Shown here: positions 1 to 3,737 of the stretch, in pieces
Numbering within the stretch: the stretch's first letter is position 1
How the letters are laid out: every line of letters starts with the position of its first letter
Origin: Deltaproteobacteria bacterium
GTDB lineage: Bacteria > CG2-30-53-67
Assembly (NCBI GenBank): GCA_013151235.1
Contig: JAADIO010000014.1
Coordinates: forward strand, 1-5,595
Reading direction: 5' to 3'
DNA: 5,595 nucleotides
Notes under the pieces: generated by a model
Seen by the model: the letters and a program-made list of their open reading frames with translations, nothing else
The model's database searches: none
Told to the model about the DNA's origin: nothing
Made by a program: the position numbers and the translations under genes

Positions 1-429
1 CGCCTGATCCGCCATTACGGTCTTCATTCCGACGACTATGATGTTGCAAAGCAGGGATGGAAGTATACGCTGAAAAGCGGCCGGGTCCTCGAATTCATCC
101 CGACCTCCTTTCTGCATGCGCCCGGTGCAATCGCCACCTATGATGCCAGGACCCGGACCCTTTTTTCCGGCGATCTCTTCGGCGCGATTGGCCGGGAATG
201 GTCCCTCTTTGCCGATGAGGAATTTATCGCCCCCATGGAGGAATTCCACCGCCTCTACATGCCTTCGAAGAAAATTCTGCGATCCTGCATGAACCGGCTG
301 GAAGGGTACGCCATCGACCGGATCCTTCCCCAGCACGGATCAATCCTCGAAGGCGAACAGGTCAAAACGGCCACCGCCCGTCTTCGGGAACTGGAGTGCG
401 GCATAGATCTTTCCGTGGAAGAACCATGA
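1..429 (+). CDS. Metallo-beta-lactamase-fold di-iron (ODP / flavodiiron-like) protein, C-terminal part
   Basis: Open from the first base in frame 1, so the N-terminus lies outside the window; 142 residues are visible, ending at TGA 427-429. Visible fragment numbering: FLHAPG with H39, LFSGDLFG with D58 and PQHG with H112 fit the last three metal ligands of the flavodiiron / ODP branch of the metallo-beta-lactamase fold (family ligand order HxExD...H...D...H; the HxExD part would lie upstream). The chain stops about 30 residues after H112, so the C-terminal flavodoxin (FMN) domain of true flavodiiron O2/NO reductases is absent. Stand-alone ODP proteins are known as oxygen or iron sensors feeding kinase pathways (for example in Treponema chemotaxis). 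Here the neighbour is a hybrid histidine kinase, so a cytosolic O2/redox sensor is the favoured role by inference. A generic MBL hydrolase or a reductase using a separate electron donor remain possible. The stop codon lies at the edge of a repeat element. Confidence 0.85.
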   Translation, partial: RLIRHYGLHSDDYDVAKQGWKYTLKSGRVLEFIPTSFLHAPGAIATYDARTRTLFSGDLFGAIGREWSLFADEEFIAPMEEFHRLYMPSKKILRSCMNRLEGYAIDRILPQHGSILEGEQVKTATARLRELECGIDLSVEEP

Positions 430-454
430 TGAAGTCGTAAAAAGTCGTTTTCCG

Positions 455-519
455 GATTCCGTTCATGGTTCGACAGGCTTCCGAGCATGGTGAGCTTGCC
501 GAACCACACGAACGGAATC
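455..519. repeat. Long internal hairpin of the element
   Basis: GATTCCGTTC at 455-464 is a perfect 10-bp inverted match to GAACGGAATC at 510-519. After a small bulge, the arms 467-480 and 492-505 continue pairing with one mismatch (473/499) and two G-U type pairs, leaving a loop of 481-491. In RNA this would be a stable stem of more than 20 pairs between the two genes. It has no T-run after it, so it is more likely a structural repeat or an mRNA processing/stability element than a simple terminator. Confidence 0.7.
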
Positions 520-553
520 AATAACTTACACCGTTCGCACTGAGCCTGTCGAA
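469..553. repeat. Inverted repeat TTCGACAGGCT / AGCCTGTCGAA
   Basis: TTCGACAGGCT at 469-479 and AGCCTGTCGAA at 543-553 form a perfect 11-bp inverted pair. It competes with the 455-519 hairpin, because the left arm is shared. Motifs of this kind (CCTGTCGAAGGGC next to CGTTCG) recur in intergenic repeats of many bacterial genomes as I remember them, which supports calling the whole segment a dispersed repeat. Copy number in this genome cannot be seen from one window. Confidence 0.6.
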
Positions 554-585
554 GGGCTTCGTGACTTTTTACGAGACCATCAACC

Positions 586-2442
586 ATGAAACACTACGAC
601 AAGGAGATCGTCCGGACGAGCGACCGGCAATTAACGGAGATCCTGACCATCAACAAGGAGCTCACGGAAAAATCGCTCCGGATGCGGTGTCTCTCCTATC
701 TCGCGGAAGTGAAATCCGAACTCCTGACCCAGACCGTCTATGAGATCGGCCGGAGCAAGAAAATCCTGCAGCAGATCAACCTTGATCTCACCTCCTCCCA
801 TACGACCCTGAAACACCAGCAGGAGATTGTCAGAGCACAGAACGAGGAACTGGAACGATGTGTTGCGGAACGGGTAGCCGATCTTCAACATTCAAATAAA
901 ACCTTACGGGAAGAGATCGAAGCACACCGGAAGAGTGAGAAACAACTACTCCTCTTCCGTACGCTCCTCAACCATTCCAATGACGAGATTTTCGTGATTG
1001 ATCCCGAACGGGGAACCTTTCTTGATGTTAATGAAAAGACCTGCACGGAACTCGGATACAGTCGCGTGGAACTCCTTTCCAGGAGTGTCATCGATGTCGA
1101 ACAAACCATTCCGGATCTCGCTGCATGGCAGACTCATGTTAAAGAACTTGCTCATATGGGAACGGCACTCTTCCCGGGGATACACATCCGGAAGGACGGA
1201 ACGACCTTTCCGGTCGAGGTGAGCGCCTCCTACATCCGGGAAGAAGATACGGCTTATCTTGTAGCGGTCGCCCGAAACATCACGGACCGGAAAAAACTAG
1301 AGGCGCAGTTCCTGCAGTCACAGAAAATGGAGGCAATCGGCCGGTTTGCCGGGGGGATCGCTCACGACTTCAACAACCTGCTCACGGCCATTATCGGCTA
1401 TTCGGAGATGCTCCTCCTCGATCGAACGCCCAAGAGTGGCGATTACGATGAGATCAAAACGATCCGCGAGACGGCAGAACGGGCATCACAACTGACCCGC
1501 AGGATCCTCGCCTTCAGCAAAAGGCCGGTAATGGAGCCAACATTGTTCAATCTGAACGATATTCTCCGCGATATGGAGAAGATGCTTACGCGTCTGTTAG
1601 GAGAAGATATTGAGTTTCGCTTTGAACCGGATGCAGATCTTCGAACGATCAAGGCCGACCCGGGCCAGGTGGAGCAAGTCCTCCTCAACCTCGTTGTCAA
1701 TGCACGCGATGCCATGCCCGACGGAGGGAGGTTGACCGTTGCCACGACCAATATCCGACTCGACCCCTCCTATGTCCAGGCCCACCCGGAGATTCGAACA
1801 GGTGATTACGTCCTGCTCTCCGTCACCGACACCGGAATCGGGATGGAAGAAGAAGTTCGGACACATATCTTCGACCCCTATTTCACAACAAAAGAAGACG
1901 GAACGGGGCTGGGACTCTCCACGGTTTACGGGATCGTCCGCCAGAACGGCGGACACCTTTATGTCTACAGCGAAATTGAACAGGGAACGACCTTTAAGGT
2001 CTATTTCCCTGTGGCAACACAAGGAGGAGTCACAAAAGAAGTTCTCCAAAAGGAAGAGACGTCGCTTCCCCACGGCCGGGAAACACTCCTCGTGGTGGAG
2101 GACGAACAGACGATTATCACACTTGTCCTTCAGGTCCTCGAATCCCTGGACTATAACGTTCGGACCGCGATGAGCGGCGAGGAGGCGCTAAGACTCATCG
2201 CTGAACGGGACAGACCGCCCGATCTGCTGATCACCGACGTTATCCTCACGGGGATCGGAGGACCGGAAATGGCCGTCGAAATGAAAAAGAAGTGGGCCGA
2301 CCTGAAGGTCCTTTTCATGTCCGGTTATGCGGACCGTAGGATTGCAAAACTTTCCGAGCTGCCTGAACCCATGGCCTTCCTTCCCAAACCCTTTACACCG
2401 GGCGAACTGGCCCGGAAGGTCCGGGAAATACTGGATGGATAA
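586..2442 (+). CDS. Soluble PAS-domain hybrid sensor histidine kinase with C-terminal receiver
   Basis: Complete, 618 residues, no membrane segment or signal peptide, hence cytosolic. Domains in order: a helical, probably coiled-coil N-terminus (about 1-120); one PAS domain (about 122-238, ending NITDRKKLEAQ); HisKA with phosphoacceptor H260 in GGIAHDFNNLL, the HPK4-like signature; HATPase with N box N368/N372, G1 box DTGIGM 415-420, F box around 429-433 and G2 box GTGLGL 439-444; then a receiver (about 499-616) with acidic E505/D506, phosphoacceptor D551, S579 and K601. All catalytic residues are intact. With no DNA-binding output, phosphate must pass on to an Hpt or another regulator not in this window. 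ATG 586 is the first start in frame after stops at 541 and 562. Its only Shine-Dalgarno candidate is a weak GAGA at 573-576, because a repeat element separates the gene from its presumed partner upstream. The ligand is unknown; oxygen/redox input through the adjacent ODP protein is inference. Confidence 0.95.
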   Translation: MKHYDKEIVRTSDRQLTEILTINKELTEKSLRMRCLSYLAEVKSELLTQTVYEIGRSKKILQQINLDLTSSHTTLKHQQEIVRAQNEELERCVAERVADLQHSNKTLREEIEAHRKSEKQLLLFRTLLNHSNDEIFVIDPERGTFLDVNEKTCTELGYSRVELLSRSVIDVEQTIPDLAAWQTHVKELAHMGTALFPGIHIRKDGTTFPVEVSASYIREEDTAYLVAVARNITDRKKLEAQFLQSQKMEAIGRFAGGIAHDFNNLLTAIIGYSEMLLLDRTPKSGDYDEIKTIRETAERASQLTRRILAFSKRPVMEPTLFNLNDILRDMEKMLTRLLGEDIEFRFEPDADLRTIKADPGQVEQVLLNLVVNARDAMPDGGRLTVATTNIRLDPSYVQAHPEIRTGDYVLLSVTDTGIGMEEEVRTHIFDPYFTTKEDGTGLGLSTVYGIVRQNGGHLYVYSEIEQGTTFKVYFPVATQGGVTKEVLQKEETSLPHGRETLLVVEDEQTIITLVLQVLESLDYNVRTAMSGEEALRLIAERDRPPDLLITDVILTGIGGPEMAVEMKKKWADLKVLFMSGYADRRIAKLSELPEPMAFLPKPFTPGELARKVREILDG

Positions 2443-2497: not shown

Positions 2498-3724
2498 TCA
2501 ATTCAGAAGTGTCCAACTCTTTTTATAGAATTTTTTTAGCAGAGAAACCATCGCCGGATTGTAATCGATTGAGGCATGTTCCTTGATTATAAATTCAATT
2601 CCATTTTCCTGATCATCTGAATAGGCAATGAGAGCACCTTCAATCTTGGCGTTTTCACTCAACTTGATCCGGGTTACGCCGTGATGCTTCGGATCCAGGT
2701 GGCGGAGTATAACCAGCCCGTGATAGTTGAAATTATCGTTGGCATCAAGACGGGCGGCTGTGCTTTCACAGCCGTCATTATAATCATCAATAATCAGAAC
2801 ACCGTAGCCGGTCACAGAGTTTTCAGTCTTCACATTTCCCTGCAAATAGGTCACTTGCGGAGCATCGGCAGTCCCCATCAGCAAAAGGTCAAGATTGTGC
2901 TCATTATCAATCCTGATAACTTTTGCGGCTTTGTCCGGCTCCCTACCGCGGAGAAGGCTGTTGACAAACCCGTCCAGTTCTTCACGTGTCGGGTGATAAT
3001 TATGAGTGATTGAAGTAACCGCTGACGTTTCATCTTCTATATCAGGCAATGAATCCGTCGTGGCAATTTTGATTTCAGTATCATCCTTCGTTTTCTTCCC
3101 TTTTATTTTCCCTTCCCAACTACTTTCAATCCTGATCTGCACATTAGGAGGCCGTTTTGTATTATCACCAGCGCCGCCGGGATTAATCAGGTTCACTGCG
3201 CCATTCAAGAGAAGAGTACCGAAGGTAATCCGGACCATATCCCGTTTGTCGTCATAGCGTGAGAAAAGAGAGAATGAACCATCACCATGATTACTAATAT
3301 GGATCGTATAGCTCTCTCCATCGTCCGGATTGCAGAGAGCATTGATGTCTTCTCCTTCGGCAAGAATATCTTCTTTCTGGGGGGACAGGTAAGCATTCAA
3401 GACGGGAGTAATGTCACCATCGACCGTGTCATACTCGAGAAGATCGTTCAAACTGTCAAATGTATAGTTGGTATTATTGATATTCAGCGATGTCCCGCTT
3501 ATGATCGCCTCAATATTGCTTGCGGCCAACTCCGTGCATCCCTCGGCAGCATACAGATTTTTCTTGTTCTGATAATCATTCCCGGCGATCTTCGTGTCAA
3601 TGGTTGTATTAATCATGGCCGTCATCCCGATCAGGGTCAGGGCCAAAAGGATCAGCAAGGCCGTCACCAGGGCCATGCCCTGGTCATTCACATACACAAC
3701 GCTCATCCTCGAAAAACGAATCAT
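2498..3724 (-). CDS. pilX: PilX-like (GspK-like) minor pilin with large C-terminal domain
   Basis: 408 residues from ATG 3724. An in-frame GTG at 3739 overlaps the previous gene's stop (GTGA) and would add five residues. I prefer ATG because GAGGGG at 3732-3737 sits seven bases ahead of it. A short leader ends NDQG, then MALVTALLILLALTLIG forms the hydrophobic helix, followed by IAGNDYQNKKNLYAAEG, which matches the PilX N-terminal family. Expected prepilin-peptidase cleavage is G16/M17; position +5 is Thr, not Glu, as in GspK and PilX tip subunits. The C-terminal part (about 289-394) has repeated short beta strands (GYGVLIIDD, FNYHGLVILR, AKIEGALIAYS), which suggests a beta-solenoid-like fold (inference). 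It is the last gene of the minor pilin operon; its product would reside in the inner membrane and then at the pilus tip. Exact ligand or adhesive function is not evident. Confidence 0.85.
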   Translation of the reverse strand: MIRFSRMSVVYVNDQGMALVTALLILLALTLIGMTAMINTTIDTKIAGNDYQNKKNLYAAEGCTELAASNIEAIISGTSLNINNTNYTFDSLNDLLEYDTVDGDITPVLNAYLSPQKEDILAEGEDINALCNPDDGESYTIHISNHGDGSFSLFSRYDDKRDMVRITFGTLLLNGAVNLINPGGAGDNTKRPPNVQIRIESSWEGKIKGKKTKDDTEIKIATTDSLPDIEDETSAVTSITHNYHPTREELDGFVNSLLRGREPDKAAKVIRIDNEHNLDLLLMGTADAPQVTYLQGNVKTENSVTGYGVLIIDDYNDGCESTAARLDANDNFNYHGLVILRHLDPKHHGVTRIKLSENAKIEGALIAYSDDQENGIEFIIKEHASIDYNPAMVSLLKKFYKKSWTLLN

Positions 3725-3731
3725 GGTTCTT

Positions 3732-3737
3732 CCCCTC
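3732..3737 (-). promoter_or_regulatory. Ribosome binding site deciding the pilX start
   Basis: On the minus strand GAGGGG precedes ATG 3724 by seven bases. The G of the overlapping GTG alternative start is itself part of this motif, so initiation at GTG would need another site, and none is obvious. The 14-base string GGAAGAACCATGAT here is identical to 417-430 at the end of the di-iron protein gene. Confidence 0.6.

Follow-up and report, generated by a model that had tools for sequence, protein, structure and literature searches.

Organisation of the locus

The analysed window is the whole stretch of 5,595 nucleotides at the start of contig JAADIO010000014.1 (GCA_013151235.1, Deltaproteobacteria bacterium). 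It opens with a pair of genes on the forward strand, between which lies a 154-bp non-coding mobile element with the termini GATG...CATC, its edges placed by comparing the 51 complete copies that this genome contains. The features are as follows.

1–429, forward strand: 3' part of the gene for an ODP-type metallo-beta-lactamase (oxygen-binding di-iron protein; Pfam ODP, 3.9e-35), the ORF ending at 429 with the stop TGA at 427–429
422–427, no strand: left 6-bp target duplication AACCAT, from the copy comparison
428–581, no strand: the MITE, 154 bp, edges from 51 complete copies
428–446, forward strand: left terminal inverted repeat (TIR) GATGAAGTCGTAAAAAGTC, from the copy comparison
455–519, no strand: inner palindromes, a strong RNA hairpin by folding
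563–581, reverse strand: right TIR, reading GATGGTCTCGTAAAAAGTC on the minus strand, from the copy comparison
582–587, no strand: right duplication AACCAT, carrying the AT of the kinase start codon, the G of which is 588; from the copy comparison
586–2,442, forward strand: hybrid sensor kinase with PAS, HisKA, HATPase and receiver domains, placed second in the pair, from Pfam and the conserved order in four genomes belonging to other families

The element codes no ORF of size, and no transposase gene lies within its 154 bp. Its TIRs are 19 bp long, imperfect (16/19 identical) and conserved among copies, and between these constant ends the inner sequence varies from copy to copy. The preliminary description had proposed a repeat that transposed, bounded by TIRs and duplicating its target, which the copy comparison bears out, with edges slightly redrawn. 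Inverted arms of 20 nt are indeed present (427–446/563–582, 85% complementary), as that description held of its 20-bp imperfect repeats, but the TIR of the element itself is 19 bp. Likewise, the direct repeat AACCATGA (422–429 and 582–589, spacing 160) had been taken for an 8-bp duplication, which is actually 6 bp (AACCAT), the next GA on the left being the first bases of the element. The repeat appears to be 8 bp long because GA both opens the element and happens, by chance, to follow the target site. Copies with T-initial duplications (TTACTT, TTCTTT and TTGATT) indicate that the outer A/T are bases of the target and not of the element, and the window duplication is therefore AACCAT and the element 154 bp. 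The period of 160 is unchanged by this redrawing.

Copy number, target duplication and distribution

The family comprises about 70 copies in its own bacterial genome (2.62 Mb, in a 73-contig assembly), in keeping with the earlier expectation of other copies with the same TIRs. The TIR core TCGTAAAAAGTC gave 147 matches in this 2.62-Mb genome vs 0 for a reversed control, a recurrence far beyond chance, and 56 BLAST matches to the element region (428–581) were reported. Of the 51 complete copies, 36 carry a target duplication of 6 bp and seven one of 7 bp, whereas eight no longer have one; this characteristic length differs from the 8 bp initially proposed. Its consensus is A-W-N-N-W-T (AWNNWT), and exact 6-bp duplication matches were found at 25 of the first 36 copies, compared to 0.8 with the right flanks shuffled.

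For the longer end GATGNNNTCGYAAAAAGTC, the own genome gave 68 + 64 occurrences and a same-genus genome 78; G002 and G004 have a few, and the same-family genomes G003 and G005 have none. The distribution of the MITE family is wide but patchy. Three genomes from outside the phylum (G271, G114 and G377) hold 87–233 exact copies of this end. Matches to the MITE ends on viral contigs were mostly to single ends, and a scan of genome contigs returned the query itself and nothing else. One further copy (L155, 1383–1553) separates the genes for MurJ and a polysaccharide deacetylase. AGGA is part of its duplication, AAGGATT, so the insertion may have given the downstream gene a second ribosome-site-like sequence.

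Survival of the stop and start codons at the ODP-kinase junction

Removal of 160 bp, leaving a single AACCAT, yields GGAAGAACCATGAAACAC (...GAACCATGAAACAC), in which the TGA of the ODP gene and the ATG of the kinase gene share bases as ATGA, with no change to either protein. This reconstruction, its ATGA overlap, the GGAAG four bases before the ATG and the retention of both protein sequences after insertion were all part of the preliminary description and are confirmed in the sequence. Its explanation, that the duplication regenerated both codons, applies to the start and only in part to the stop. The kinase start AT|G survives because the right-hand duplication supplies its AT and the flank its G, while the stop of the ODP gene survives because its T, the only base of that codon to be duplicated, lies in the left copy and GA opens the element. 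More generally, since the target usually ends in T, the edge T|GATG gives TGA in one frame; another frame meets a TAA ten bases into the element.

The GGAAG (in the 417–429 region) was not duplicated at insertion, so that ACGAGACCATCAACC now stands ahead of the kinase ATG, possibly with altered translation of the kinase. The 13-mer GGAAGAACCATGA is found at 417–429 on the forward strand and again at 3721–3733 on the reverse strand, before pilX, and in none of 200 shuffles. This ribosome-site string before pilX had been counted as support for the reconstruction; it says nothing about the insertion, and no link between the pilX-side string and the element was found. A 10-bp string inside the element, TTCATGGTTC (463–472), is the reverse complement of GAACCATGAA in the reconstructed empty junction (421–430), which is probably a chance match because duplications at other insertion sites are unrelated.

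No match to the ODP protein at the threshold used, or to the kinase N-terminus, was obtained in the other genomes of the phylum set, and the ODP-kinase site therefore has no close empty allele. The pair does occur without the element, in the same order, in four genomes of other families. Two of these junctions are 4-base stop/start overlaps, CCCATGA (ATGA, L140) and CCGTGA (GTGA, L139), whereas the other two have spacers of 2–13 bp, namely TAG-AT-ATG with a 2-bp spacer (L138) and a 13-base spacer (L137). The compact state is thus the common one, with ATGA or GTGA exactly in two of the four, whereas the 160-bp shorter allele anticipated for relatives was found in the phylum set at another copy and not at this exact locus. 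An ATGA overlap is the probable empty state of the exact locus.

The same genomes bear on the reading that the flanks were joined artificially through the repeat. Short reads running through one of many similar copies in a 73-contig assembly could misjoin flanks, but AACCAT stands on both sides of the element and the ODP-kinase order is conserved in the four other-family genomes, making such a chimera extremely unlikely.

It was also considered that the element has been retained as a regulator of the kinase, its hairpin or terminator-like stem tuning kinase expression or uncoupling it from the ODP sensor gene. The predicted fold of the whole element is very stable (-64.6 kcal/mol, z -5.8), one terminator-like site is present (542–559, vs 0.4 expected) and the kinase start has lost its nearby GGAAG, all of which would suit such a role. 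However, hairpin and stem lie in sequence common to many copies at unrelated places, although not each copy was tested, and so are not specific to the ODP-kinase operon. Furthermore, crude folding predicts a similar accessibility of the kinase start with the element (0.46) and without it (0.42), and a crude anti-SD pairing score barely shifts (-3.0 vs -3.3 kcal/mol). Retention for regulation is on these grounds unlikely; the insertion itself may nonetheless have weakened or uncoupled translation of the kinase.

Empty sites and insertions at other gene ends

At a sister copy (L169), which has an ABC-transporter ATPase gene on one side and a gene for a membrane protein on the other, the empty site was found in the same-genus genome G001 (L195). 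The alignment with G001 runs across the site, and what G001 is missing is precisely the 132-bp element plus one 6-bp duplicate, reading GAATAAAGGTTGCG vs GACTAAATGT[element]AAATGTTGCG. This copy, at TAAATG, was considered as a third stop/start case and rejected, given that the relative has TAAAGG at this place and the real start codon probably lies further downstream.

Inner palindromes and a strong fold are also what would be expected of an old intergenic palindromic (REP/BIME-like) or RNA-regulatory spacer that never transposed. Set against this are the sharp common edges, the 6–7 bp duplications at most copies, constant TIRs around a variable inner sequence, the exact empty site at the sister copy and the lack of any Rfam match at gathering thresholds. 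An untransposed spacer, at odds with both the duplications and the empty site, is very unlikely.

A second stop/start overlap was encountered at L176 (minus strand, ATGGTTGA), between an upstream gene for an HGD-D family protein (Pfam, 4.3e-34) and a downstream ORF of 308 aa, where stop and start are both preserved by the same route as at the window copy. The element is absent from this site in G001 (L189), which has a TAATG junction, and the corresponding junction in G003 and G005 is ATGA. The family thus combines the features of a MITE, being short and without a transposase gene, with TIRs, a duplication of characteristic length, many copies and empty sites, the last seen directly at L169 and as absence of the element at the L176 site, and represented for the window copy by the compact junctions of other families.

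At two further copies (L148 and L178) the stop codon was split after its T and then restored by the element. Altogether, a stop codon was interrupted behind its T by five insertions out of 43, compared to 1.5 expected from nearby permitted AWNNWT sites (simulated P ~0.006), an excess that is suggestive only, as the test used crude ORF calls and was run after the cases had been seen, and one of the five, L167, adjoins the end of an older relic. Because AWNNWT|GATG makes TGA at either edge, an insertion that hits a stop codon at its first base would be silent for the upstream protein. We tentatively consider it possible, if rather doubtful, that stop codons and tight stop/start junctions are favoured surviving sites, the transposon ends and target preference being fitted to gene ends.

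A candidate transposase

In the sister species of the same genus (G001, JAJRUP010000066.1), a 597-aa protein with DUF772 and DDE_Tnp_1_6 domains (L095) is flanked by GATGAACTCGTAACAAGTC and GACTTCTTACGAAGCCATC, each with one mismatch to the MITE end. Its best NCBIfam family is IS1182 (NF033551) at 159 bits, below the cut-off of 270; it is IS1182-like and was not filed as an IS1182 member. No matching target duplication was found around this element. A homologue with 61% identity, L107, comes from G377, where 162 TIR matches were counted; it has similar ends and adjoins a MITE of the same design. In this unrelated genome the MITE (1095–1261) stands beside the related full-length IS (1268–2932), with AACCTT between them. 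A 40% identity homologue in G142 is present in three 1.8-kb copies with the ends GACGGGGCGGCAAAAAGTC (GACG...CGTC) and duplications of 6–7 bp (AAATCTA, ATAAATT and AAAGCT). With duplications of equal length and ends that resemble those of the MITE, an IS1182-like transposase is the best candidate and, as judged from these sequences, the likely mobiliser of the MITE.

In the own genome, no L095-like transposase was matched at E 1e-40, and no long ORF recognised by eye as a transposase lay within about 3 kb of six single TIR ends. Given the former result, the family may be stranded there, or its partner was missed. A 546-aa IS1182 transposase inside a TIR pair in G004 (L097) was rejected as the autonomous element because it has different ends of its own (AGAGACTGTGTCA...), and was read by eye as an IS nested in a MITE. 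This IS1182-family element (L097 575–2501, G004:C150; NCBIfam, 364 bits) is apparently inserted in a MITE of the window-element family.

Combining these lines, we propose that staggered-cut transposition would have brought a MITE of the approximately 70-copy family into AACCAT|GA, at a junction where the ODP and sensor-kinase genes overlapped by ATGA. Filling-in of the stagger would have duplicated 6 bp, with the right copy retaining the kinase ATG and the left copy the T of the stop, the TGA of which would be completed by the fixed terminus GATG, and the transposase would most likely be an IS1182-like DDE enzyme supplied in trans. As a whole, this account of a non-autonomous MITE entering an ATGA overlap, with duplication and terminus saving the codons and an IS1182-like enzyme acting in trans, is held with high confidence.

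Comparison with known systems

MITEs are well known in bacteria, and no description of this TIR was found among the papers searched, both string matches being unrelated; the element apparently represents a new MITE family of a known kind. Chunjie is reportedly a MITE of Geobacter uraniireducens Rf4, and the title of Chen et al. 2008 (Genetics 179:2291; cited in PMC10969869) is said to present it as a precedent for insertion into an operon. In conflict with this title, the review PMC10969869 has the Chunjie insertion disrupting one copy of the operon. Chunjie is 235 bp long (178–235), against 154 bp for the window MITE. REP and other intergenic palindromic repeats are likewise short, repeated and strong hairpins between genes, but the window element differs from them in its clear TIRs and target duplications. 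With the IS1182 family the candidate transposase shares DUF772, DDE_Tnp_1_6 and its best NCBIfam match, and it differs in scoring under the family cut-off and in the 6–7 bp duplications of the L095 homologues, compared to 4 bp for ISPse1, the only IS1182 element in the table of PMC3281130.

Against this background, a high-copy MITE family of a little-sampled phylum is tied to a likely IS1182-like transposase, and the idea arises that the end sequence of an element may determine where its insertions survive. The window MITE shows with unusual clarity an insertion at a stop codon overlapping a start codon, giving a base-resolved account of how a transposon enters overlapping genes and leaves both proteins unchanged, the duplication restoring the start and the terminus of the element the stop.
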